In this document: piece by piece, positions 10,277 through 62,499 of the stretch | How positions within the stretch are numbered: position 1 is the stretch's first letter | Layout of the letters: each line of letters opens with the position of its first letter | Origin: Treponema sp. | GTDB taxonomy: Bacteria; Spirochaetota; Spirochaetia; Treponematales; Treponemataceae | DNA length: 64,000 nt | NCBI GenBank assembly: GCA_017934745.1 | Contig: JAGBIY010000023.1 | Coordinates: 62,001-126,000, forward strand | Reading direction: 5' to 3' | Program-made: the position numbers and the translations under genes | The notes under the pieces: generated by a model | What the model saw: the letters and a program-made list of their open reading frames with translations, nothing else | The model's database searches: none | Told to the model about the DNA's origin: nothing

Positions 10277-10328
10277 GCAGAAATTATTCGGGGATTTTTT
10301 CCGTTCGTCAATTTATTTTAAAAAACAA

Positions 10329-11693
10329 TCAACCGAGCCTTATTCGGGCGGCTTTCGCGTGTCCGGCCAAGCCCTCGGCGTCGCCAAGGTTGCCGGCGGC
10401 TACGGCGGAAGCCACGGCACCTTTCGAGCCGGGAACGGTGCGGAGCGTCGTGACGGTCTTGAGGAAAACCCTCACGCTCAGGCCGCCAGTGAACCTTGCG
10501 CTCCCGGACGTGGGCAGGGTGTGGTTCAAGCCGGCCGCATAGTCGCCGAAGACTTCCGCGCTTCCGTGGCCGATGAAGAGGGAGCCGTAGTTGTGGCAGA
10601 GTTCAGCAATTCTGTCGCGCTCCTCCCCTTCGTCCATCGCAAGCTCCAAGTGCTCCGGAGCCTTCCTGTTCGCAGCCTCGGCCGCCTGTTCAAGGTTATC
10701 GCAGACGATGATTCTTCCGCAGTTCTTTATTGACTGTTCGGCAGTGGCCCTCGTCTCAAGCACGGCAAGCTGTTTCTCGATTTCCTCGGCGACCTTCTTG
10801 GCGAGCTCCTCTGAATCCGTGGCCATGACGGGCTGCGCCACAACGTCGTGCTCCGCCTGCGCGAGCAAGTCGGCGGCGACCCAAGACGGGTTTGCGGATT
10901 TGTCGGCGATGATGAAGACCTCGGTGGGGCCCGCCACCATGTCGATTCCGACTGTTCCGTAGACGAGCTTCTTCGCCTCAGCCACGAATTTGTTGCCCGG
11001 CCCAACAATCACGTCGGTTCTCGGAACGGACTGGGTACCGAAAGCGAGCGCGCCGATTGCCTGGCTTCCACCGCACGCGAACGCCTTTGTGACTCCGCAG
11101 ATGTGGGCGGCCGCCATGATGTTCTCGTCGGCGTAGGCTTTTCCGCCCACGAACGTTTTTCCGGGAACGCCAAGCCCTTTCTTCTCCGCCTCGGCCTTGT
11201 CGTCCGGGTGGACGCGAGGCGGAGTGCAGAGGATTATCTCCTTCACGCCAGCGGCCACCGCAGGGGTCACGGTCATGACGACTGTGGAGACGAGCGGAAA
11301 GCGGCCCGCGGGAACGTAGACGCCAGCCCTGTCGACTGGAATGTTCTTCTGCCCTGTGAAAACGCCAGGCTCAAGCTCCATCTCGAAATTGTCGAAAGAC
11401 TCCGCCTGCTTCTTCGCGAAGCGGAGAGCCAAGTCGTGGCTGTAGCAAAGCGCGTCGTACAGCTTGGGATTCTCCCTCTTCATCTTCTCGGCCGCGGCCT
11501 CAAGCTCCGAACGCGGAATCTCGATTGAAGCGGGCGCGGAAACGTCGAATTTCGCGCCGTATTCCGCCAAAGCCTCGTCACCGCGGTTTTTCACATCGTT
11601 CAGGACATCCTTCACGACATCGATTGAACCGCCGAAATCCCGGCCGTTGAAGAAGGAATCCTCGACTTCTGAATATTTCTGAATCTTTATCAT
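10329..11693 (-). CDS. hisD: Histidinol dehydrogenase
   Basis: 454 residues, the usual length. HisD performs the last two oxidations of histidine synthesis (L-histidinol to L-histidine, NAD+, Zn2+). Visible marks are VDRAGVYVPAGRFPLVSTVVM, VGPGNKFVAEAK, GPTEVFIIAD, LLAQAEHD and the catalytic HTLPTSGSARFTGGLSVRVF block. The ATG at 11693 is preceded by AGAGG at correct spacing; the frame extends upstream but lacks a signal. It is not in a his operon: the neighbour downstream is addB, and the other his gene of the window, the hisA-hisI-hisE fusion, is 6 kb away. Scattered his genes are plausible in spirochaetes. Confidence 0.96.
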   Translation of the reverse strand: MIKIQKYSEVEDSFFNGRDFGGSIDVVKDVLNDVKNRGDEALAEYGAKFDVSAPASIEIPRSELEAAAEKMKRENPKLYDALCYSHDLALRFAKKQAESFDNFEMELEPGVFTGQKNIPVDRAGVYVPAGRFPLVSTVVMTVTPAVAAGVKEIILCTPPRVHPDDKAEAEKKGLGVPGKTFVGGKAYADENIMAAAHICGVTKAFACGGSQAIGALAFGTQSVPRTDVIVGPGNKFVAEAKKLVYGTVGIDMVAGPTEVFIIADKSANPSWVAADLLAQAEHDVVAQPVMATDSEELAKKVAEEIEKQLAVLETRATAEQSIKNCGRIIVCDNLEQAAEAANRKAPEHLELAMDEGEERDRIAELCHNYGSLFIGHGSAEVFGDYAAGLNHTLPTSGSARFTGGLSVRVFLKTVTTLRTVPGSKGAVASAVAAGNLGDAEGLAGHAKAARIRLG

Positions 11694-11800
11694 ACAAACC
11701 TCTGTTTTTTCTGTGTCCCTTTTTTGCAAATCAAAATTACCACAAAACGAAATCTGTTTCATTAAAGCGAAGATTGGAATAAACTTTTCAAATCAATTAT

Positions 11801-11970
11801 TAGGTCGAAAGTCGAGTTTATGCATACCGTAGTTGCAGAAACAAGCTCCCAGCGGGAACCCGCCCATCAAAACGGCAGTACCGCTTCGCGGTGGCTGAGT
11901 GTTTTGATGGGCGGACCCCCGCTTCCGCTCGTTTCTGCCATTGCACTGTGAAAACTCGACTTTCGACCTA
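11801..11970. repeat. Structured repeat element, copy 1 (about 170 nt, nested inverted repeats)
   Basis: Bounded by a perfect 19-bp inverted repeat (11801-11819 with 11952-11970). Inside are nested stems: 11835-11842 with 11931-11938, a perfect 14-bp stem 11860-11873 with 11901-11914, and a small central hairpin 11880-11892 (ACCGC-TTC-GCGGT). The single-stranded parts between stems (for example GCTCCCAGCGGGAACC and CATTGCACTGTG) are conserved in copy 2 at 17590-17769, whereas the stem bases differ but stay paired. It lies just before the ribosome site of the secreted protein at 11989. It could be a non-coding RNA, a cis-regulator or a MITE-like element. No ORF of note is inside. Confidence 0.85.
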
Positions 11971-11988
11971 TTAATCAAGGAGAAAACA

Positions 11989-13050
11989 ATGAAGAAATTC
12001 CTCGCCGCTGTTTCTGCGGCATTACTTGCAGCCGCCGTTTTCGCAAACGACATTTTCGCCGGCAAATCGTTCGATGGAATAGACCAGTCCGTCTACTACA
12101 AATTCAACAACGACAACACGGCGGAACTCATCTCCGGGAACACAGTGGGAGCCGTATTGAACTACAAGCTCGACGAAAGGAAAAAGACAATCAAGTTTTT
12201 CCCCAAAAAAGTCGAATCGACATCCCTCGGAATCATAGGATTCGAAAACAGGCTCTGCGAGAAAAAAGAAATCCTCGACTTCATCAACAAAAAAGATTTC
12301 GAGCGCGACACACTCAACAAAATGCTCGAAGAAGAATGCGGCTTCGACCCGAAAATCGAACTCGGAGGCAAGGACGAAGTAGAGCAGATTTTGAACTGCA
12401 TAGTCTTCGTGAACTACAGGGAGGAGGCAAAGACGGAGGAAGCCTACGACAAGAGCGTGGACTACACGGAAAAACTCAGGGAGGAGCTCAAGAAGAACGA
12501 GGACCAGGAGCAGGCGAATGAACAGATAAAAGAAGTTGAAGAATTCCTCGCGTCCATAAGGGCGGAACTCGAATCCACCACGATTCCCCAGGTCAAATCG
12601 ATGAAGAAGAAAATCGAAGCCCGGCTCGACACGATTTTCGACACCGAGATAATCTTCAACTACAAGGAGAACGAAGACGGCAGCATTCTACTCACGGAGG
12701 AAGCGGAGAACGTCAGCGCGAACGTGGTCTTCCTCTCGATGAATTCGGCGAACGAAGAGAAGCACGTCTACATCAACTCCAGCATCCTCGCCACAGCGGA
12801 CGTGGACGAGTCAGGGAACCCTATCGCAATAAAATTCTTCACGACAAGCGACAAGTGCAAAAAAGATTCGGGCAAAGTCACCTTCGTGAACTCCGACGAC
12901 AAGAAGGACAAGCTCAAGGCGGCCTATTCAATCAGCAGAAGCGAGAACGAGATAGAGATAACGCTCAAAATCACGTCAGGAAACTTGAAGGGCACCGAAC
13001 TCAAAAGCACATACAAGACATCCACGGAAACGCTCACGCCACGCGAATAG
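11989..13050 (+). CDS. Secreted hypothetical protein (paralogue A)
   Basis: 353 residues with an N-terminal signal peptide (MKKFLAAVSAALLAAAVFA) and a strong AAGGAG site. No recognised domain. The mature protein starts with NDIFAGKSFDGIDQSVYYKF, has a charged helical middle (about residues 150-215, Glu/Lys-rich, coiled-coil-like) and a C-terminal beta-rich part ending KGTELKSTYKTSTETL. The next gene, 9 bp downstream, is a clear paralogue with the same layout (IFKGNTFSVEDDEVFYKF near the start, FTIRGLYHTSKSTL at the end), so the pair arose by tandem duplication. The upstream region is occupied by structured repeat copy 1, which could influence expression. Function unknown; probably periplasmic or surface. 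Confidence 0.85.
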   Translation: MKKFLAAVSAALLAAAVFANDIFAGKSFDGIDQSVYYKFNNDNTAELISGNTVGAVLNYKLDERKKTIKFFPKKVESTSLGIIGFENRLCEKKEILDFINKKDFERDTLNKMLEEECGFDPKIELGGKDEVEQILNCIVFVNYREEAKTEEAYDKSVDYTEKLREELKKNEDQEQANEQIKEVEEFLASIRAELESTTIPQVKSMKKKIEARLDTIFDTEIIFNYKENEDGSILLTEEAENVSANVVFLSMNSANEEKHVYINSSILATADVDESGNPIAIKFFTTSDKCKKDSGKVTFVNSDDKKDKLKAAYSISRSENEIEITLKITSGNLKGTELKSTYKTSTETLTPRE

Positions 13051-13059
13051 GAGAAAGAC

Positions 13060-14106
13060 ATGAGAAAAACGCTCGCAATCGCGGCAGCCTTCCTGCTCAC
13101 GGCGGCGCTTTCTGCGGAGAACATATTCAAGGGGAACACGTTCTCTGTGGAAGACGACGAAGTATTCTACAAGTTCACCGACGACACGAACGCGAAAATC
13201 TTCTCCAACGACACGGACGAAGGCGAGACTACGCACATGGAGCTGGAATACGTTCTCGACGAGAAGAACAGGACGATAAAGCTCAGCCCGAAAAAAATCA
13301 GGACGGCCCTTTTCGGAATCCCCGGAATCGAAGACAGGCTTGTGACCAAAAAAGAGCTGCTAGACACGATAAAAGCGGAAGGCTTCAAGGAGGACGTGTT
13401 CAACAAGCAGTTCGAGGAGCTCACGGGCTTCAATCCGCACATAAAGCTCGGCAAGAAAGACGCAGTAGACAAAGTTATGAACGTGTTCCTGTACAACGAA
13501 TTCTTCGGCGACAGCGAATACGACGAGAGCGTGGACTACAAGGCGAAGGTTCTGGAAATGGACACAGACGAGGAAGAGATGCCAAAGGAGGACGTGGAGA
13601 AGGAAATCGAACTTCTCACACGAGCCATGAAGGCGACGCTCGCAAACATAGACATGGAATTGAAGATTCTTTCGGCATCCGTCTCGCTCACGTTCGACTT
13701 TTCCATGACGTTCAACTACGAGCAAGAAGAAGACGGCAGCGTAAAATTCACGGAATCGCCACAAAGCGTGGACGCGCAGACCGTCTTTCTGCAGATGAAA
13801 GCGGACGGAACAACCCGCAGCGTCTACATCACGAAAGGCATCCTCTCGATTGTGAGGGAGGGAGAAGACGGCAGGACTCCAGAAATAGACCGCTACGCGA
13901 CGAACGACAACCTCAAAAAGCCCGCAGGAAGAATCACATTCTTGAAGGCCGGCAATCCGAGGGAGAAAATCAAGGCGGCGTACAAAATCGACAACAGCCA
14001 GGACCCTGTAACAATGGAAATCACTTTCAAATCAGGCGCCCTCAATGGATTTACGATAAGGGGACTCTACCACACGTCAAAATCAACGCTGATTCCAATC
14101 AAGTAG
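13060..14106 (+). CDS. Secreted hypothetical protein (paralogue B)
   Basis: 348 residues with signal peptide MRKTLAIAAAFLLTAALSA. It is a tandem paralogue of the preceding gene: the order IFKG-TF, VFYKF, LDEKNRTIKLSPKKI, FGIPGIEDRL, DAVDKVMN, a charged helix, FNYEQEEDGSVKFTE and a final LNGFTIRGLYHTSKSTLIP mirrors paralogue A block by block. The 9-bp gap and a ribosome site (GGAGAAAG) in it indicate one transcript. Divergence is high, so the copies may have separate ligands or partners. No domain is recognised and no lipobox Cys is present, so it should be soluble in the periplasm or exported. Confidence 0.85.
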   Translation: MRKTLAIAAAFLLTAALSAENIFKGNTFSVEDDEVFYKFTDDTNAKIFSNDTDEGETTHMELEYVLDEKNRTIKLSPKKIRTALFGIPGIEDRLVTKKELLDTIKAEGFKEDVFNKQFEELTGFNPHIKLGKKDAVDKVMNVFLYNEFFGDSEYDESVDYKAKVLEMDTDEEEMPKEDVEKEIELLTRAMKATLANIDMELKILSASVSLTFDFSMTFNYEQEEDGSVKFTESPQSVDAQTVFLQMKADGTTRSVYITKGILSIVREGEDGRTPEIDRYATNDNLKKPAGRITFLKAGNPREKIKAAYKIDNSQDPVTMEITFKSGALNGFTIRGLYHTSKSTLIPIK

Positions 14107-14126
14107 AGAGGCAGGCATTTCGAATC

Positions 14127-15668
14127 CTACAAGATGATTCTGATTCCCGCTCCGTGGGAAGCCGTGTTGTATGCGCGGACGCTTCCGCCGAGCGACTCCA
14201 CGATGACCTTGGCGATTGAAAGCCCAAGCCCGCTTCCACCGACAGAGCGTGTGTGCGCCTCGTCGCCCCTGAAGAAACGCTCGAAGACGTGCGGAAGAAT
14301 CGATTCTGCAAAGCCGCTTCCGTCGTCCTCGATTTCTATTGTGGTCTTGTCGGATTTTTTCGCCTTCAGTTCTATTCGGCAGGAATCCCCCGCATATTTC
14401 ACGGAATTCGAAAGCACGACAGTCAAAACCTGATGCAGCAGTTCCGAATCCGAGTCGAAAGAGAAATCGCTCTCTTCGCATGAAAAATCGATGCGGACTG
14501 CCGGAGCCACAGCCGAGAATTCCTCTTTCAAGCGCAGGAACATCTCCTTCATGTTCACCTTTTCCACGTTCGGCTTGATTTTCCCCCTCTCAAGACGCGA
14601 AATCTGCAGGAGATTCGTGATTATCGCCTCCATCGACTTCGTTTCCTTCTTTATGGAATTGAGCGACTTCTCAAGCTGGGCGGCGTCTTCCCTGCCCCAG
14701 CGCAAAAGCAGGTTCGTCTGTCCGAGAATGACGGCTATCGGTGTTTTCAGCTCATGGGAGACATCGCTCGTGAACTGTTTCTCCCGGTCGAAGTCGACTT
14801 TGAGCCTGTCGAAGAGATTGTTGAACGTCATCACAAGGTCGTTTATCTCGTCGTTGTGCCGAGGACGCTCAAGCCTCTCGGTTCCGAGATTGGAGCTCGA
14901 AATCTTGGACGCGGCCCTCGTGACCTTGACGACAGGCTTCATTGTCCTGGACGTTATCAAGTACGAGATGAAGAACGAAATGACGAGAATCGGGATTATC
15001 GCCATCAAGACGGATTTTGGAAGCGTCTGGTAGAGCTGGTACGACACTTCCCTCGTCATGTCCATCGACGTTGCGATGTTGAGCTTTTTCTCGCCGACAT
15101 CGACCTCCTTCGAATAATAGAGGATGTTCAAGTCGCCATCGATGTAGTAGTTCTTCTTTATGAGCCTTTTTGTCTCTCCCGCAGTGTTCGAGACAGCTGG
15201 AAGGAACGGGTCGTTGGTGAAGAGTACATTCCCCTCGCTGTTCGTGACGACGAACGAAATGTAATACGGAATCATCGGGAACGGGGACGGACGGGAGTCG
15301 AACGCGTTTTTCGCCTCCTTCGACTCCTTCACAAGCTCGTGCTTCGAATCGTCCTTCTTCAAGGAATTGTCGTCCTCGAAAGGCTCCCCCTCCGGCTCGA
15401 GCTCGACCCCCTTCTCACTTTTCGCTCCAGGCTCGGCCTTCTTCGAGGCGACAGCCAACCTGGACTTGAGCCGTTTGCTCGCGGGGAACGACTTTATCTC
15501 TTTCTCAATCGACTCGGCAGCGCGCATCAATTCCCAATCCTGTCCGTCGCGGACGAATGAATTTATGAGCCAAACGAAAGCGAGGGAGAGTAAAAGAACC
15601 GCCACGGTGAGCACCACGGTGAACCTGAACGCCAACCGGACGGAAATGGATTTGAAAATGTTCTTCAT
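14127..15668 (-). CDS. Sensor histidine kinase
   Basis: 513 residues. TM1 is near residues 12-33, followed by a periplasmic part of ~180 residues with an unusually charged Lys/Glu/Asp-rich segment (about residues 60-120). TM2 (SVLMAIIPILVISFFISYLI) leads into HAMP, then a HisKA domain with SDVSHELKTPIAV (phospho-His near residue 304). The HATPase domain has N, G1 (IEDDGSGFAE), F and G2 (GGSGLGLSIAKVI) boxes, so it should be active. It lies 20 bp downstream of the OmpR-type response regulator and is surely its partner. The neighbours on both sides encode small secreted proteins, suggesting the system monitors or modifies the envelope (inference). Confidence 0.92.
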   Translation of the reverse strand: MKNIFKSISVRLAFRFTVVLTVAVLLLSLAFVWLINSFVRDGQDWELMRAAESIEKEIKSFPASKRLKSRLAVASKKAEPGAKSEKGVELEPEGEPFEDDNSLKKDDSKHELVKESKEAKNAFDSRPSPFPMIPYYISFVVTNSEGNVLFTNDPFLPAVSNTAGETKRLIKKNYYIDGDLNILYYSKEVDVGEKKLNIATSMDMTREVSYQLYQTLPKSVLMAIIPILVISFFISYLITSRTMKPVVKVTRAASKISSSNLGTERLERPRHNDEINDLVMTFNNLFDRLKVDFDREKQFTSDVSHELKTPIAVILGQTNLLLRWGREDAAQLEKSLNSIKKETKSMEAIITNLLQISRLERGKIKPNVEKVNMKEMFLRLKEEFSAVAPAVRIDFSCEESDFSFDSDSELLHQVLTVVLSNSVKYAGDSCRIELKAKKSDKTTIEIEDDGSGFAESILPHVFERFFRGDEAHTRSVGGSGLGLSIAKVIVESLGGSVRAYNTASHGAGIRIIL

Positions 15669-15688
15669 CTTGCTAGGCTTTCGGAAAT

Positions 15689-16354
15689 TTATTTCTCAAC
15701 GAATTTGTAGCCTGAACCGCGGACGGTCTTTATGTAGTCGGCTCCGATTTTGCTCCTGATGTAGCCGACGTACACGTCCACCGTATTCACGTCGATGTAG
15801 TGGTCCTTGCCCCATATCGAATCGATTATGTCGTCGCGGCTCATCACCTTGTCAGGATTCTCCATGAAGAGCTTGAGCATGAGGAATTCCGTTTTGGAAA
15901 CGCTCTCCGGCTTCCCGTTCACGGTCACGCTCATGCTGTCTATGTTCATCTCCAAATCGCGTATCTTTATGATTTTTCCGCCGACTTTTGGAGCGTTGGC
16001 GCGCCTCAGGACCGCGTTCATCCTCGCCAGAAGCTCCTCTATTTCGAACGGCTTTGAAATGTAGTCGTCGGCACCGGAATTCAAGCCGTTTATCTTGTCT
16101 ATCGTCTCGCCCCTCGCGGTCTCAAGGATTACGGGAACGTTCGATTTCGAGCGTATGCGCCTGAGCACCTCAAGCCCGTTCATTTCGGGGAGCATGACAT
16201 CGAGCAAAACCATGTCGGGATTCTCGCTCTCGAATTTCTCAAGCCCCTCCCTGCCGCTCTTTGCGAGCACGGTCTCGTACCCCTCGTGCTTAAGCTCAAG
16301 CTCGACGAATTCGCTGATTCCCTCGTCGTCCTCGACAATCAAAACCTTTGCCAT
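15689..16354 (-). CDS. OmpR/PhoB-family response regulator
   Basis: 221 residues. The receiver domain has the acidic pocket VEDDEG (residues 8-11), phospho-acceptor Asp52 in VLLDVMLPEMNG, and the conserved Lys in YISKPFEIEEL. A C-terminal winged helix follows (SKTEFLMLKLFMENPDKVMSRDDIIDSIWG, then VYVGYIRSKIG and VRGSGYKF). It is first in a two-gene operon with the downstream histidine kinase. A likely target is the divergent secreted-protein pair at 16391-17579, whose shared upstream region carries inverted repeats; this is inferred from position only. Confidence 0.95.
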   Translation of the reverse strand: MAKVLIVEDDEGISEFVELELKHEGYETVLAKSGREGLEKFESENPDMVLLDVMLPEMNGLEVLRRIRSKSNVPVILETARGETIDKINGLNSGADDYISKPFEIEELLARMNAVLRRANAPKVGGKIIKIRDLEMNIDSMSVTVNGKPESVSKTEFLMLKLFMENPDKVMSRDDIIDSIWGKDHYIDVNTVDVYVGYIRSKIGADYIKTVRGSGYKFVEK

Positions 16355-16390
16355 AAAAATCCTCCTGAAAAATAGACCTGAATTGGAACT

Positions 16391-16804
16391 CTAAAACTGA
16401 ATCTCGACTTTTTTTAGGGAGACACCCGAAAAAGAAACAATGTCCTCAAGCGTCACAGAAAAACTTCCGCCCTTCACGGGCATGGAAAGCCGCATCGTCT
16501 TGCCGTCCTTGCTGAAAAGGAACTTCGTGTCGTCCATCGGCAGGACTCCGTTGTTCAGTTTCACCGTCTTTCCGTTCACAGAGCGGGGATCCACTCCTTG
16601 ATCGAACAGGAAATCTATCTGGACTTTTCCCTCCCCGACCCTTTCCATTTTCGTAGAGACTAGATTGAATTCCACAGAGTCGTTCGCGACGCGCATACCG
16701 TGATACCCCATCGACTGCTTCGGCTCAGAATACGCTGAAACGCAAAAAGAGAAAAATAGAATCGCTAAAATTGAAAATGATATTTTGGTTCTCATGGTCT
16801 TCAT
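16391..16804 (-). CDS. Small secreted protein next to the two-component system
   Basis: About 137 residues. It begins with a signal peptide (ISFSILAILFFSFCVSAYS); the start could be ATG 16804 (GAGG only 2 nt upstream) or ATG 16795. The mature protein is beta-rich with a final repeat-like part: VQIDFLFDQGVDPRSVNGKTVKLNNGVLP, then DDTKFLFSKDGKTMRLS and VEIQF. The layout resembles a small Ig-like domain of the kind that compares values with an ideal strand pattern (SbsA/Big-like), but no family is assigned firmly. It is encoded 36 bp upstream of the response regulator on the same strand and so may be the first gene of that transcript. Confidence 0.75.
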   Translation of the reverse strand: MKTMRTKISFSILAILFFSFCVSAYSEPKQSMGYHGMRVANDSVEFNLVSTKMERVGEGKVQIDFLFDQGVDPRSVNGKTVKLNNGVLPMDDTKFLFSKDGKTMRLSMPVKGGSFSVTLEDIVSFSGVSLKKVEIQF

Positions 16805-16882
16805 GGCCTCAATTCTAATGGAAAATCGCAAGATTAATTTCAAAAAATGAGCTTTCTGAACAAAGACTTACGAACAAGCGAC

Positions 16883-16962
16883 TTTCATGAATGAAAACTT
16901 ATATATATTTTATCGTCATTTTATGATTGAAACTCCCGTCTCCATTACATTCTCAATCATAA
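16883..16962. promoter_or_regulatory. Divergent regulatory region with two inverted repeats
   Basis: The AT-rich 205 bp between the divergent secreted-protein genes (starts 16804 and 17010) holds TTTCAT-GA-ATGAAA at 16883-16896 and a perfect 10-bp inverted repeat TTATGATTGA (16921-16930) with TCAATCATAA (16953-16962). The second could form a stem-loop in the leader of the plus-strand gene. Possible operators for the adjacent response regulator; inference from position and symmetry. Confidence 0.4.
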
Positions 16963-17009
16963 AAAGTCAAAAATCAATCGAAATGAAAAAGATTGAAAGG
17001 AGCATACAC

Positions 17010-17579
17010 ATGACAAAATCTACAAAGACACTTGCGGCATTCACAATGGCGGCGATTCTCGCGGGCGGCTCCATCTTCGCCCAGTCATCGCAGAGCAAAA
17101 ACGAAGACAACGACAAGCAGAAGGCGGAATTCCGCCGCATGGAGCCGAGACGCGGCAAAATCCCGACAGACCAGACAGTCATAATCGGCCAGGTGAAGAA
17201 AGTCGACACCAAGGAATCTTCCATCACGATAACGAACACGGACGGAAAGGACGTTTCAGTCAAAGTCACGCCGTTCACTGATGTGGACATCGTGCCCGCC
17301 ACACGCCCGAATCCAAGCGACATGAAAGAGATGAAGGGGAAAAGGGCCGAAAAAGACTCCGACGAAGCCCGCGCCACAGACGGAAAAAGCTCCGACGGCA
17401 AGGAAAAAGGCAAAATGCAGCCTCCTCCGATGAGGCGCGACAATTCAATAAATGAAATCAGGAAAGGCTCGTGGATTCTTGCGGCCACCTACAAGACCGA
17501 CACGAAAGTCCCCGCCGCCTCGCAAATCGTGGTGAAGCAGGACAGGCTGGAAAAATCCGACACAATCGACGCGAAATAA
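17010..17579 (+). CDS. Secreted protein with OB-fold-like (DUF5666-like) segment
   Basis: 189 residues. Start ATG 17010 follows GAAAGGAGC; a long AT-rich frame upstream is not used. Signal peptide MTKSTKTLAAFTMAAILAGGSIFA. The mature part opens with an Arg/Met/Pro-rich stretch (RRMEPRRGKIP), then TVIIGQVKKVDTKESSITITNTDGKDVSVKV in a small beta-barrel-like pattern similar to DUF5666 domains. A charged low-complexity insert with MKEMKGKRAEKDSDE follows, and the barrel closes with IRKGSWILAATYKTDTKVPAASQIVV. Divergent from the two-component-system side, sharing a regulatory region. Metal or polyanion binding is possible but unproven. Confidence 0.75.
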   Translation: MTKSTKTLAAFTMAAILAGGSIFAQSSQSKNEDNDKQKAEFRRMEPRRGKIPTDQTVIIGQVKKVDTKESSITITNTDGKDVSVKVTPFTDVDIVPATRPNPSDMKEMKGKRAEKDSDEARATDGKSSDGKEKGKMQPPPMRRDNSINEIRKGSWILAATYKTDTKVPAASQIVVKQDRLEKSDTIDAK

Positions 17580-17589
17580 AAGCACATGT

Positions 17590-17769
17590 CAAACGCAGAG
17601 TTTGAACATATCGTAGTTGCTGAAACAAGCTCCCAGCGGGAACCCTGTTCAAAAAACGGCTGTACCGCTTCGCGGTGGCGTTAACATCGCTTGCGATGTT
17701 TAGTGTTTTTTGAACAGGAACCCCGCTTCCGCCTGTTTCAGCCATTGCACTGTGAAAACTCCGCATTTG
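17590..17769. repeat. Structured repeat element, copy 2 (about 180 nt)
   Basis: Same organisation as the element at 11801-11970. Outer stem 17590-17603 with 17756-17769 contains two C/A mismatches on the plus strand that become G-U pairs on the minus strand, so any RNA should be minus-sense. Stem GCTGAAAC/GTTTCAGC has a compensatory A-T to T-A change against copy 1. The 14-bp stem 17644-17657 with 17704-17717 is perfect but of different sequence from copy 1. An extra hairpin (AACATCGC-TT-GCGATGTT) is inserted near the apex. Located between a secreted-protein gene and the his fusion gene. Confidence 0.85.
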
Positions 17770-17783
17770 CCCTGCCATAATTG

Positions 17784-17850: not shown

Positions 17851-19152
17851 TTATTTTTCCTTGTGGCGGCGGTCAAGTTCGTTGTAGACGTCCTGCCATG
17901 AAACGCCTTCCTTGTACATGAGGACGCTCACGAAATAGAGCAAGTCCGCGGCTTCCCAGATTACCTCGTCCTTAGTCTCGGCATCGTCGGTAAGCTCCTC
18001 GGCCTCCTCCATCACCTTCTCCCTCACGCGCTTGTCGTCCAGTGTCGCGGTGTAGCTTCCCGGGCGCGGATTGGCGAAACGCTCGGAAATCACGTCGTAG
18101 AGACGCTCCATGTTTGATTTTGCGTCAGGGTCGCTTTCGAAGCAGGTGAAGCTTCCGGTATGGCAGGCTCCACCGTTCGGCTTCACTGTCGCGAGCACGG
18201 TGTCCCTATCGCAGTCGGCGCGCATCTTCACAAGCTCAAGGAAGTGGCCGCTTGTCTCTCCCTTCGTCCACAAAGTGTTTCTTGTGCGGGAGAAGAACGT
18301 GAGCTTTCCGGTCTCGAACGACTTCTCGAACGCTTCCTTGTTCGCGTAGCCCATCATGAGGACCTCGCCCGCCACCGACTGCGCAATCACAGGAATCATC
18401 CCGCCGACCTTCTGGAAATCAAGGCAGTTGATGAAAGCGTCCTTCAAATTCACGACGCCCGTGTACAAAGCCATTCCGAGCTGAACATCGCAGCCGAGCC
18501 TCTCAAGTTCCACCACCTGCTCAAGCGAATTCACGCCGCCTGCGGCGACGACGCGGCACTTCACTGCGGAGCGCAAAGCCTTCACGGCCTCCATGTCGGT
18601 GCCCTGCATACAGCCTTCTTTCTCCACGCAGGTGAAAAGAAGCTCGGAGCAGTACTTCTCCGCCTCTTTCGCGCCGTCAATCAAAGAAACGTCTATCGTC
18701 TCGGTCCAGCCGCGGACCGCTATCTTTCCGTTTATCGCATCCACGGAGATTATCACGCGCTGCTTTCCAATCGCCTTGCACAAGTCCTCAAGGAACTGCA
18801 CGTTCAGGATGGACTCCCCCGCTTTCGGATTCGGGTTCCACGCCGCGCTTCCGACGATGACCTTCTCCGCTCCGAGCGAAATCAACTCGCGCGCCTTCTT
18901 CACATCGCGGATTCCACCACCAACACGAACATTTCCCTTCCTGAGAAGGCTCTTCAAAAGCTCCGTGTTCTTGGTGTTCCCCTTCGCGTCGGTGTTCCGC
19001 AAAGCCTGATCCAAATCGATGATTGCGACCTCGCCGAATTTATTGAAATCGCCAATGAGACTGTCGGCATCGTCCCTCTGCAGAACCAAATCCTTTCCGT
19101 TTTTGAGCTGGACGACGTGTCCGTCCTTCATGTCAATACTTGCAATAACCAT
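17851..19152 (-). CDS. Trifunctional HisA-HisI-HisE fusion (histidine biosynthesis)
   Basis: 433 residues in three parts. Residues ~1-235 are HisA, the ProFAR isomerase TIM barrel, with ASIDMKDGHVVQL, GGGIRD, VSVDAING-like catalytic Asp strands and VVAAGGVNSLEQV. Residues ~240-340 are HisI (PR-AMP cyclohydrolase): EVLMMGYANKEA, TLWTKGETSGH and the Cys-bearing DCDRDTVL and GGACHTGSFTCF, which bind Zn. Residues ~350-433 are HisE (PR-ATP pyrophosphatase): EEAEELTDDAETKDEVIWEAADLLYF. It thus carries steps 2, 3 and 4 of the pathway in one chain. HisIE fusions are common; HisA in front is unusual. Start ATG 19152 fits the HisA N-terminus although the ribosome site is weak. Confidence 0.93.
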   Translation of the reverse strand: MVIASIDMKDGHVVQLKNGKDLVLQRDDADSLIGDFNKFGEVAIIDLDQALRNTDAKGNTKNTELLKSLLRKGNVRVGGGIRDVKKARELISLGAEKVIVGSAAWNPNPKAGESILNVQFLEDLCKAIGKQRVIISVDAINGKIAVRGWTETIDVSLIDGAKEAEKYCSELLFTCVEKEGCMQGTDMEAVKALRSAVKCRVVAAGGVNSLEQVVELERLGCDVQLGMALYTGVVNLKDAFINCLDFQKVGGMIPVIAQSVAGEVLMMGYANKEAFEKSFETGKLTFFSRTRNTLWTKGETSGHFLELVKMRADCDRDTVLATVKPNGGACHTGSFTCFESDPDAKSNMERLYDVISERFANPRPGSYTATLDDKRVREKVMEEAEELTDDAETKDEVIWEAADLLYFVSVLMYKEGVSWQDVYNELDRRHKEK

Positions 19153-19302
19153 AATGGAATCGAGTATATCAAAATTACGCGATATGCTCTTCTTTTTTAT
19201 CGAAATTTCAAATTTCCGTTTTATAATGATTCTTATGCGCGTCTCCAAAAACTCCAATTTTTGAGAAATACGCTGCGTCAAATTTTTTTTAAGGAGGAAA
19301 AC

Positions 19303-26254: not shown

Positions 26255-26264
26255 AGGAGGTCCC

Positions 26265-26312
26265 TAGGAGCTTGTTTCGGCAACCACAATACGCACAAAC
26301 TCGACATTCGGC
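26265..26312 (+). repeat. Half copy of the structured repeat element
   Basis: TAGGAGCTTGTTTCGGCAAC and the following CACAAACTCGAC are the reverse complement of one arm of the elements at 11801 and 17590 (their AGTTGC-GAAACAAGCTCCC side), with scattered changes. The opposite arm is missing, so the outer stem cannot form. It lies ~45 bp upstream of the DTW-domain gene. Confidence 0.7.
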
Positions 26313-26354
26313 ACAATGAGCGATTTTTTTTGGCAGATTTTGTAGAATCTCATC

Positions 26355-30000: not shown

Positions 30001-30196
30001 ATTGGTTCGACTTCGCTCACCAACCGACGGAAATGTCACGACTTCGCTCTCCAACCGACGGAAACGTCACGACTTCGCTCTCCAACCGACGGAAACGCCC
30101 GAATTCGCTCTCCAACCGACGGAAACGCCCGAATTCGCTCTCCAACCGACGGAAACGCCCGAATTCGCTCTCCAACCGACGGAAAAGCCCGAATTC
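30001..30196. repeat. Tandem array of a 30-31 nt unit upstream of SirTM
   Basis: Six occurrences of CCAACCGACGGAAA spaced 31, 31, 30, 30 and 30 nt apart (GACGG at 30026, 30057, 30088, 30118, 30148, 30178). The first two internal units carry GTCACGACTTCGCTC, the later ones GCCCGAATTCGCTC. The array starts with a hairpin (GATTGGT with ACCAACC). Spacers are not unique, so this is not a CRISPR. Confidence 0.9.
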
Positions 30197-30204
30197 AAAT
30201 CATG

Positions 30205-31008
30205 CTATTTTCCAGGGAAGAACATTCTGGCCGACATGTCGAGGTAGTTCAGCCCTGAATATTTTGGATAAGCCGACTGGACAGCAGCCTTGAACGCAGC
30301 CGCGTCGGCGTTCTTGATTGCGATGTTCTTCAGCCCCTTGAGGTACTCAATCTTCGTTTTCACATCGTCCAGATTCTCCACGACATAATGGCTCGTCAAG
30401 ACAAGCCCGACGTTTTTCTTGATGTAAGATTCCAGTACGGAAATGAGCGCGTCGGCGTGTGCTTTTCCCGCGACAATCGAATGAACATCGTGGCCAAGCA
30501 TGTGGGTGTAGACAACATTGATTTCAGGAATGAAGATGTCGAAGGCTTCCTGAATGCGGGTGATTTTCATTTCCACACCGCAGAGATTGAGACTGTCGCC
30601 TTCGATAAAATCCGTTGTCGTGTAGATTGATTTGTCGAAGGCCTCCCCGAACGCGCCAGCAAAATTCGAGACGAGCCCTGCCCCTCCGCCGTTGTGGTTG
30701 TAGTCGTCGGCGTTTTTTGTCGAGTAGACCTTGCTTCCTTTCATGAAAGAAGCGCCCGCTCCGTGATAGGCGATGACGGCTCCTTCATACTTCAAGCCGT
30801 TGTCGGAGATGTATTTTTCCAGCTCCTTGATGTTGTCGAAAAAGCACGGCGACTCAATCATGAAGCAGCGGCCGTCTTTCTCCACCAGAAAACATTCGTC
30901 CGAAATCAAGTCGTTCGTCTTGAACGCATGGAGTTTGACCGAACCAAAATCATAGATTTCCATTACGCCCTTCGATAGCTGAACCGATGTGAACTGTGTC
31001 TTTTCCAT
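30205..31008 (-). CDS. Metallo-beta-lactamase-fold-like protein under Rrf2-type control
   Basis: 267 residues, ATG 31008 behind AGAGG. The layout (beta-rich start with ECFLVEKDGRCFMIESP, then AVIAYHGAGASFMKGSKVY, IYTTTDFIEGDSLNLCG, EINVVYTHMLGHDVHS and LTSHYVV) resembles MBL-fold hydrolases. The usual H-x-H-x-D-H metal motif is not visible; YHGAGASF stands in its place, so metal binding is uncertain. Divergent from an Rrf2-family regulator with two symmetric sites between them, suggesting it is the regulated target. No signal peptide. Confidence 0.6.
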   Translation of the reverse strand: MEKTQFTSVQLSKGVMEIYDFGSVKLHAFKTNDLISDECFLVEKDGRCFMIESPCFFDNIKELEKYISDNGLKYEGAVIAYHGAGASFMKGSKVYSTKNADDYNHNGGGAGLVSNFAGAFGEAFDKSIYTTTDFIEGDSLNLCGVEMKITRIQEAFDIFIPEINVVYTHMLGHDVHSIVAGKAHADALISVLESYIKKNVGLVLTSHYVVENLDDVKTKIEYLKGLKNIAIKNADAAAFKAAVQSAYPKYSGLNYLDMSARMFFPGK

Positions 31009-52782: not shown

Positions 52783-53290
52783 ACCGTTGTCCAGTTGAAA
52801 AAAACATTTGCCACATGGATGTCAACCTCGCAAAGAATCGCCGAAGGCGATTCTTTCGCATAAGGTGGTAGAGGTTGTCCAGTTGGAAAAAGCATTTTCC
52901 ACATGTGAGGCAACCTCGCCAAGAATTGCGGTGCAATTCTTGCGCATTGGTGGGAGCGTTTTACAGTTGGAAAAAGCATTGCCACATGTGAGGCAACCTC
53001 GCAAAGAATCGGGACGCTGCTGGGAGCCGAATGTGTCCTAAACGTTGCGAGTTGGCGGCAGCGTCGCCAAGAATTGCGAGACAATTCTTGCGCATTGGTA
53101 GGTTGCCTTTTTGCAGCTGAAAAAAGCATTGCCACATGTGAGGCAACCTCGCAAAGAATCGGGACGCTGCTGGGAACCGAATGTGTCCTAAGCATTGCGA
53201 GTTGGCGGCAGCAGTCGCCAAGAATTTCGAGGCAATTCTTGCGCATGGGGGCGGTTGTCCAGCTGGAAAAAGGCATTGCCAGTGGGCATT
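52783..53290. repeat. Cluster of ~100-nt intergenic repeats with hairpins
   Basis: At least four related units in 500 bp. Each has CAGTTGGAAAAAGCATTGCC or a variant, CACATGTGAGGCAACCTCGC, and a hairpin AAGAAT ... ATTCTT whose loop-side bases differ but stay paired (AAGAATCGCC-GAA-GGCGATTCTT; AAGAATTGC-GGT-GCAATTCTT). Two units carry an extra block GACGCTGCTGGGA ... GGCAGC. A 310-codon minus-strand frame runs through it but is only a translation of the repeats. No gene is seen in 52779-53424. Confidence 0.85.
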
Positions 53291-60567: not shown

Positions 60568-62499
60568 ATGAAACGCTTTGTGTTTTTTTTTGTCATATCG
60601 CTAATCTTCTCACTGATGGGCTTGCCTGCAAGGGAATTGACGTTCAAGGTTTCCGCAAGTCCAATGCTGCCTTTTTTGTCCAGCGGCAACGGAAGATACG
60701 GCTCCATTGGAGTGACAGGAGATTTCCAAGGCGGAATCATGTTCTTCGACTGGCTCAACATAGGCCCGGAATTCCGCTACATGATGCTGCCAAAGAACAA
60801 CGCGTCTGAACTTCCAGAAACAGCATCCCAGTACGTAAACTTTTTTGCGGGGGGATTCCACTTTGGCGCGCTTCTGTACCCGGCATCACGAATCGAGTTG
60901 GAACTTGGAGGCTCATTCGGTCCCTACTTTTCCATATCGGGAAGCTACGAACATTCGGCTCCGTACTACAAAGCGTTCGCGGACGTGGCTTTCAGGCTCA
61001 CGCCAAACTGGACAATCGGAGCGGAAGCGGCCTGGCTGGACCACCAGTACGACACCTACTGGGGAGAACCGGGCGCGGCCGGAATCGCCATCGGAGTTTC
61101 AGTACGCTACAAGTTCGACACGGAGGAATCGACACAAAATGTACTCGGAACAGTGGCGCAGGACGACAGCGTCTTCCCGATTCTCTACACGCTCTACAAG
61201 GAGGCTCCGTTCGCAACAATAACGCTCACAAACGACGAGACAGCGGAAATCAGGAACGTGCAGGTCTTGTTCCGGGCTGGAAAATACACAGGCTCCGAGT
61301 TGGAATGCGGAAGAATCGGGGTCCTGAAAAAGCACAAGAGCGCAGAAATCCCGCTCACCGCCGACTTCACGAAAGAGATTCTGAACTTCACGGAAGAGGG
61401 AAAGATTCCGGGCGAAATCGTCGTGAACTACGAGCTGCTCGGCCAGAAAAGAGTCTCGGTCTCGCAGGTCATCATTCCAGTCTACAACAGAAACCAACTA
61501 AGGTGGACGGATTCGGCATCGCTGGCAAGCTTCATCTCCCCGACAGCCCCGGAAATATTGGAATACTCAAAAGTGCTCGTCGGTCTCGCGCGGAGCCACC
61601 AACGCTCGGGTCTCAACAGGAACCTCCAGTACGCAATCTACGTCTTCGAAGGAATGCGCCTTTCTGGAATCGCGTACAAGGAAGACGAAACGACGCCTTA
61701 TGATGCGACGCACATGGACTACGAGGCAATCGACTACATCCAGTACCCGTACCAGACAATGATGTACAAAGCGGGAGACAAGGACGACCTGGGAGTTCTC
61801 TTCATGTCGCTGCTGCAGTCGACTGGAATCGATGCGGCGTTCATTCCTGCGGAAGACGATTTCATCGTCGCCTTCAACCTGAAGCTGGACTCGTCAAAGG
61901 TGAACTCTTTCTTCGACGGAAGGGACCGAGTGCTCGACATAAACGACGAAATTTGGATTCCGGTGTCCATGTCTGGAATAAAAGAGGGGTTCGTGAACAG
62001 CTGGTACAAGGCAATCGAAAAGCTGAACGACATGCAGGCAAACGAAGAGACTATCGAATTCGTGAACATCAGCGAATCTTGGCAGACATACCCTTCCGTC
62101 GGCTACTCAGGCGCGGACGACATCAACATTCTTCCACTGGAAAGCGCGCTCATAGCGTCTGCGGAGACGAACATCTCAAGATACATAACGGCGGAATTCG
62201 GACCGCAGATAGCGGCCCTGCAGGAGAGGATAAAGGCGGAAGGCATCAGCGTGAAACTCTTGAATCAGCTCGGAATGCTTTATCTGAGGGCTGGAATGTA
62301 CTCAAGCGCGATAACGGTGTATGAGCGTTCCGCGAAGATGGGCTCGGCCACGGCCATGGTCAACCTTGGAAACATCGCCTCGATTCAGAAAAGATTCAAT
62401 GACGCGAAGATTTGGTTCGAGAAGGCGCTGGAAACAGATCCGAAGAACAAATCGGCGAAGACGAACTTGGAAAGAATCCAAAGGGAGTTCGATGAGTAA
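60568..62499 (+). CDS. Outer-membrane barrel/inactive transglutaminase-like/TPR protein
   Basis: 643 residues with signal peptide ending GLPAREL. Residues ~25-190 form beta strands of an outer-membrane-like barrel (GSIGVTGDFQGGIMFFDWLNIGPEFRYMM, ending IAIGVSVRYKF). A middle beta domain (~215-320) leads to a transglutaminase-like domain (~325-480) with AIDYIQYPYQTMMYKAGDKDDLGVLF. Here Lys405 stands for the catalytic Cys and Asp431 for the catalytic His (next gene: Cys408, His434), so it is inactive. TPR-like helices (~560-643) end it. The next gene starts within its stop (TAATG). Surface or periplasmic assembly role is likely. Confidence 0.83.
   Translation: MKRFVFFFVISLIFSLMGLPARELTFKVSASPMLPFLSSGNGRYGSIGVTGDFQGGIMFFDWLNIGPEFRYMMLPKNNASELPETASQYVNFFAGGFHFGALLYPASRIELELGGSFGPYFSISGSYEHSAPYYKAFADVAFRLTPNWTIGAEAAWLDHQYDTYWGEPGAAGIAIGVSVRYKFDTEESTQNVLGTVAQDDSVFPILYTLYKEAPFATITLTNDETAEIRNVQVLFRAGKYTGSELECGRIGVLKKHKSAEIPLTADFTKEILNFTEEGKIPGEIVVNYELLGQKRVSVSQVIIPVYNRNQLRWTDSASLASFISPTAPEILEYSKVLVGLARSHQRSGLNRNLQYAIYVFEGMRLSGIAYKEDETTPYDATHMDYEAIDYIQYPYQTMMYKAGDKDDLGVLFMSLLQSTGIDAAFIPAEDDFIVAFNLKLDSSKVNSFFDGRDRVLDINDEIWIPVSMSGIKEGFVNSWYKAIEKLNDMQANEETIEFVNISESWQTYPSVGYSGADDINILPLESALIASAETNISRYITAEFGPQIAALQERIKAEGISVKLLNQLGMLYLRAGMYSSAITVYERSAKMGSATAMVNLGNIASIQKRFNDAKIWFEKALETDPKNKSAKTNLERIQREFDE

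Follow-up and report, generated by a model that had tools for sequence, protein, structure and literature searches.

We analysed 64,000 nucleotides of a Treponema sp. genome (the window: positions 62,001 to 126,000 of contig JAGBIY010000023.1, assembly GCA_017934745.1), in which a short hairpin-forming element occurs in two copies and one truncated copy. A preliminary description of this DNA, made from its letters alone, had proposed two copies of a structured element with compensatory stem changes, and had suggested that this element could belong to a non-coding RNA family or be a mobile palindrome. Both copies lie at the claimed places, and their limits are refined to 11803-11968 and 17587-17772. 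Their parts are as follows (window positions; a strand is given where one is assigned).

11803..11968, minus strand: copy 1, a complete element of 166 bp; minus is the strand favoured by G-U pairs, and the covariance model matches 11818-11955
11798..11802: left target-site duplication TATTA of copy 1
11969..11973: right target-site duplication TATTA of copy 1, with an identical TATTA at the orthologous locus L186
11803..11819, plus strand: terminal inverted repeat GGTCGAAAGTCGAGTTT, left end of copy 1, used for the end-motif search of the own genome
11952..11968, minus strand: terminal inverted repeat, right end of copy 1
11861..11873: first arm of the variable inner stem (P2) of copy 1, CGCCCATCAAAAC
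11901..11913: second arm of the variable inner stem (P2) of copy 1, GTTTTGATGGGCG
11874..11895, minus strand: conserved apical hairpin of copy 1 with a GAA triloop in the minus sense, covered by the apical-motif matches and the triloop census
17587..17772, minus strand: copy 2, of the 186-bp class, with diverged ends; the covariance model matches 17602-17759
17645..17657: inner stem arm CTGTTCAAAAAAC of copy 2
17705..17717: inner stem arm GTTTTTTGAACAG of copy 2
17680..17704: extra apical hairpin module GTTAACATCGCTTGCGATGTTTAGT of copy 2, of a type that opens the 3' side of the apex in 33 of 113 extracted elements

The stem swap reported in the preliminary description, an exchange of GCAGAAAC and GCTGAAAC, is present in the sequence, the inner stems of copies 1 and 2 do differ as it said, and the extra apical hairpin that it saw in copy 2 is the module at 17680-17704. 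The element body is one long hairpin. Copy 1 folds with z=-14.2 on the plus and -13.5 on the minus strand, and copy 2 with z=-7.5 and -9.1, respectively; for both copies, 0 of 200 shuffles folded equally well on either strand.

Further copies, on which the preliminary description had made its reading depend, are numerous in the genome from which the window comes (the own genome, G000, a draft of 3.58 Mb in 73 contigs). Allowing 2 mismatches, the end motif matched at 197 places; allowing 3, the right-end motif matched at 86; the apical motif matched exactly at 118 places, and the reversed control of each pattern gave 0 matches. Half of the end-motif matches gives an estimate of about a hundred copies. 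Many contigs terminate within a copy, and because of this some copies are counted twice and the family breaks assemblies. The elements fall into length classes of 166, 186 and 203 bp, and they are short, dispersed and without a coding gene, as are miniature inverted-repeat transposable elements (MITEs). By mechanical gene calls, 48 of 54 elements in the own genome and 47 of 50 in other genomes are intergenic.

The ends of the element carry the marks of transposition. At 25 of the 52 own-genome loci with both ends recognisable we found an identical 5-bp duplication, compared with 1.72 on average and 6 at most when the flanks were reshuffled 500 times. The matching duplications conform to TAWTA and adjoin the conserved 17-bp ends; a 2-bp duplication occurred at chance level, and every remaining length at no more than 2 loci. 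Other genomes had the 5-bp duplication at 7 of 26 loci (null mean 0.72, maximum 4). The 17-bp end GGNCGAANGTCGAGTTT was present exactly in 28 of the 201 genomes of the genus, giving the conserved inverted ends expected of a MITE. No target duplication is visible at copy 2 (17587-17772). The preliminary description had treated the ends as an outer stem. Its observation that the mismatches in the outer stem of copy 2 become G-U pairs only in the minus sense holds, but the outermost 17 bp are read here as transposon ends, which are conserved as sequence in the own genome and are not a covarying stem. Two further features of the window are as follows.

10311..10335: element-free site; the relative G172 (L110) has an element and a second hairpin of a related kind in the orthologous gap
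26264..26313, minus strand: truncated copy with the left end and left arm only

The site at 10311-10335 is thus empty here, and G172 carries an element between the same genes. The half copy noticed earlier is real; it lies within stretches that are 76-78% complementary to the left halves of copies 1 and 2. Taken together, the 17-bp ends, the 5-bp duplications, the empty site and the many scattered copies support the mobile palindromic element of the preliminary description, and the copies are transposed, MITE-like elements. Their anatomy is that of a MITE, apart from an autonomous partner.

The body of the element was examined for covariation. Extraction gave 116 places, from which 3 with 4 mismatches were dropped as chance, leaving 113 elements; the alignment holds 72 of these, drawn from 8 genomes and oriented as the minus strand of copy 1, and leaves out the 33 with the added apical module, the G250 copies with an insert in the right arm, and duplicates. 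RNAalifold returned a single stem of 42 pairs, of which 28 have changed on both sides, and 97.4% of the 3,023 cells are paired across the 72 copies, the opposite of the uncompensated stems that the preliminary description had named as grounds for giving up its proposal. The covariation score was 0.447; shuffles scored 0.125 and slid structures 0.05-0.06. When substitutions were re-dealt along the tree in 60 simulations, 8 column pairs of the real alignment exceeded this tree-aware null and all 8 were stem pairs; the other 34 stem pairs, 7 of them invariant, were not significant. The inner stem is represented by 56 distinct arm pairs among well-paired copies. Several unpaired or weakly paired positions are retained: the apical triloop is GNA in the minus sense in 96 of the 113 elements, a central U-U mismatch is kept in 67 of the 72 aligned copies, each of the two G-U pairs flanking it in 68, and a purine loop is GGA or GTA in 69.

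A remote set of members outside the training set behaved in the same way. In 34 rows fitted to the covariance model, 36 of the 42 pairs had changed on both sides. Removal of 4 opposite-strand rows and 4 of the 5 orthologous rows left 26 rows with the same 36 of 42, and 91.7% of their cells were paired, as against about 45% with the structure slid by one. In G250, the right inner-stem arm of 7 of the 14 extracted copies (L115, L120, L125, L195, L197, L198 and L201) is interrupted by an insert of about 77 nt that carries a recurrent motif, CACGAGTCGCT, so that modules are nested in this genome.

The preference of G-U pairs for the minus strand, noted earlier in copy 2, holds for the aligned family. 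On the tree, and excluding the two conserved G-U pairs, there were 33 arrivals at G-U and 12 at A-C in the minus sense (p=0.0025). Among unique inner stems the ratio of G-U to A-C was 12:2 in the own genome and 12:0 in other genomes. The covariance model scores copies 1 and 2 at 153.9 and 108.8 bits on the minus strand and at 47.2 and 38.5 bits on the plus strand, which is not independent evidence, because the model was built in the minus sense. Covariation beyond the tree-aware null together with the minus-strand G-U bias supports the earlier proposal of selection on a folded strand. Both natures that had been offered, the non-coding RNA family and the mobile element, therefore find support, as two sides of one object.

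We compared nine pairs of orthologous loci, eight with the relative G249, whose shared loci are about 85-97% identical to those of the own genome, and one with G167. At the site of copy 1, G249 has identical flanks and an identical TATTA, around an element that is inverted and has a different inner stem. The pair L192/L095 shows no change, and L189/L063 an internal deletion in the own genome. Three pairs (L102/L011, L190/L170 and L124/L077) match in their outer parts and flanks but not in the inside or in one inner arm; L194/L008 diverge in the inside and in one near flank, L114/L004 over their whole length, and L191/L170, whose near flanks do not match, are oppositely oriented. Elements also occupy the intergenic site of copy 2 in G249 (L267, in opposite orientation, with near flanks that cannot be aligned) and in G172 (L116), and L028/L177 is a site common with G172 at which the stems differ. 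Since the inner stem differs where the outer parts of orthologues agree, it has probably been exchanged as a unit between copies by gene conversion. Such exchange, together with repeated insertion, is the best fit to the turnover seen at these loci.

The exact apical motif was found in 8 of the 275 family genomes, and these 8 belong to a single genus. With the covariance model we searched other Treponema genomes, as the preliminary description had suggested. At E<=0.001, 96 of the 201 genus genomes contained relatives; at E<=1e-5, so did 52 of 391 sampled genomes of the order, belonging to 5 of 91 genera, all of the own family. At most 16 (genus) or 8 (order) candidates per genome were scored, so that copy numbers from these searches are lower bounds, and the E-values are rough. 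In many of the inspected remote members the shared scaffold carries a different tip, which often has a GNA loop as well. End repeats also vary among related hairpin cores, and on some of these cores none can be seen. Among the matches listed for the apical motif (79 named stretches), at least 61 are titled Treponema, one isolate being labelled sheep rumen, and at least 1 Spirochaetaceae; 17 scattered single matches in other bacteria, also among the matches listed, look like chance. The Treponema titles agree with the genus named in the preliminary description. One remote member (L344, L345, L347, L348 and L351) stands between ilvD-like and ilvB-like genes, named from their translations, in the folded sense of the operon and at the same place in five genomes; it is possibly a domesticated copy.

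Similar 17-bp ends also surround bodies of 81-273 bp at six loci of other genus genomes (L215, L216, L218, L228, L235 and L237), 4 of which have a 5-bp duplication. By the covariance model L215 and L228 are remote members of the hairpin family and L218 is a weak match; L216, L235 and L237 look different.

Database searches returned no named relative of the element. No Rfam 15 family reached the gathering threshold for the window or for 8 remote loci, the best match below threshold at copy 1 being a microRNA model with E=0.044. Phage and plasmid records gave no match to the element, and viral contigs gave none for the inner-core pattern; 3 stretches of viral contigs contain the exact 17-mer end. 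No description of the hairpin family was found in open-licence PubMed Central literature, and the excerpted texts of PMC10132070, PMC1590033, PMC12306157, PMC8040213 and PMC10969869 contain none, though the family may overlap with elements tabulated in print.

Three other places in the window may be recorded. A single open reading frame of 476 residues at 17851-19281 fuses HisA-like, HisI-like and HisE-like domains. About seven head-to-tail copies of the 30-bp unit CGAATTCGCTCTCCAACCGACGGAAACGCC occupy 30009-30219. At 52786-53253, where the relative G172 has a hairpin element, there are several imperfect repeats of 46-104 bp.

We favour, with moderate confidence, the interpretation that the element is a non-autonomous transposon moved in trans, whose body is a hairpin likely selected as folded minus-strand RNA. 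A DDE-type transposase encoded elsewhere would recognise the 17-bp ends. Read-through transcription in the minus sense would yield a hairpin of about 140 nt with a GAA-capped tip and purine-rich internal loops, which might be bound by a host or element protein or cut as double-stranded RNA, and this binding or cutting might keep insertions tolerable or aid the spread of the element. A wider version of this idea, which we hold to be unlikely, is a family-wide mobile structured RNA: a core whose tip is conserved and whose self-complementary inner stem can be exchanged would have travelled through the Treponema family on several kinds of transposon ends, and its folded minus strand would take part in the spread, for instance by partnering a transposase as RNA or as a single strand.

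Several observations weigh against a transposon selected as minus-strand RNA. An autonomous partner with the same ends was not found via four transposase families, in a draft genome and with rve and other families outside the search, and no long element with these ends was seen among the loci inspected. The sole DDE_Tnp_1 match in the own genome has unrelated ends, and none occurs in G249, G172, G250 or G217. DDE_Tnp_1_4 was found in 0 of 21 genomes, and DDE_Tnp_Tn3, the Tn3 transposase that would mark the family as Tn3-derived inverted-repeat miniature elements (TIMEs), in 0 of 12. Y1_Tnp was present in 6 of 21 genomes and in none of G000, G249, G172, G250 and G217, the five with most apical matches. 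At 24 of the 52 own-genome loci, no duplication of 3-10 bp was found. As to transcription, copy 1 has no promoter- or terminator-like site, copy 2 has one of each, near the shuffled expectation, and own-genome elements show no preferred orientation relative to the upstream gene (22 of 48 co-directional). The 12 arrivals at A-C count against pairing as RNA in the minus sense, and in the 26 remote members the excess of G-U over A-C outside the two conserved pairs is weak (28 and 17 cells) and not convincing alone. Finally, in 2 of the 72 copies (L075 in G000, L191 in G249) one arm has become the exact complement of the other at a conserved mismatch, as by hairpin-templated repair.

The fold could instead be one of single-stranded DNA, formed by the minus strand of a mobile element in replication or transposition and read by the mobilising enzyme in the manner of attC sites or IS200/IS605 ends. 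We give this a minor chance. The strand bias does not distinguish RNA from single-stranded DNA, because G-T also pairs in DNA, and the indifference of own-genome copies to gene orientation is in keeping with a DNA fold, as is the frequency of GNA triloops, which are exceptionally stable in DNA mini-hairpins. The 5-bp target duplications, in contrast, indicate a staggered double-strand cut and not Y1 or integron chemistry, and Y1_Tnp is missing from the five genomes richest in apical matches. Nor did local GC skew reveal a preference for a replication strand (106 elements, mean 0.0008, p=0.865), a test that is weak because the flanks are short. It may also be that the pairing is mutational rather than selective, the arms of a long palindrome being repaired from each other by template switching, so that both change together although the fold has no function. 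Repair of this kind should erase non-complementary loops, and yet the U-U mismatch and the GGA/GTA purine loop are kept in nearly all aligned copies; a preference for G-U over A-C on one strand is not predicted either. These kept mismatches and the strand bias speak against a purely mutational origin, which we judge fairly improbable, even though it accords with 139 inferred pair changes, the majority, that went from Watson-Crick to Watson-Crick, with the exact complements in L075 and L191, with the internally deleted copies L054, L063 and L083, and with the weak G-U excess in remote members. The single-stranded DNA and mutational explanations are less likely alternatives to a minus-strand RNA. 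Most doubtful is a family of host cis-regulatory elements or small RNAs that transposon ends would have spread and that the host would retain for regulation. The copy between the ilvD-like and ilvB-like genes of five genomes would suit it, as would related cores with different or no visible end repeats, and in other genomes 31 of 47 elements are co-directional with the upstream gene (p=0.04). Own-genome copies nevertheless occur in all four gene arrangements, and copies vary among relatives in presence, in type and once in orientation.

Some known elements resemble the Treponema family. According to the excerpted text of PMC10969869, which also names BOX elements, Correia elements, ERIC and Coxiella QMITEs are short, gene-free and intergenic, with inverted ends, direct repeats and stably folding transcripts, some Correia transcripts being cleaved by RNase III. 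The Treponema family shares with these hairpin MITEs the short gene-free intergenic form, the inverted ends and the direct repeats, and differs from them in its ends GGNCGAANGTCGAGTTT and in its duplications, which are 5 bp long and resemble TAWTA. The insertion site of Correia and ERIC is TA. Unlike in these MITEs, the Treponema stems covary across several species and favour G-U pairs on one strand, and related cores bear different ends. The BOX elements of Streptococcus pneumoniae are likewise modular, dispersed and structured, with size classes from added modules; the modules of the Treponema family consist of apical hairpins and of an inner stem that can be exchanged, and the two families are set apart by description, not by sequence. 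REP/REPIN are dispersed intergenic palindromes as well, associated with RAYT tyrosine transposases, whereas the Treponema element is several times longer and has 5-bp duplications, and the five genomes with the highest numbers of apical matches yielded no Y1. Integron attC sites are folded single strands with conserved loops and sequence-variable stems, a likeness that ends at the dispersal of the Treponema copies and at their transposon-like ends and target duplications.

Bacterial MITEs are usually viewed as passive remnants, their hairpins being a by-product of inverted ends. Judged from its sequences, the Treponema family differs from known MITEs by its covarying, one-strand-biased body and its varied end repeats. 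Across many species the body evolves as a structured RNA would, favouring one strand, while its ends are those of a transposed element. The family thus allows a test of whether what is selected in a selfish element is an RNA or a fold of single-stranded DNA.

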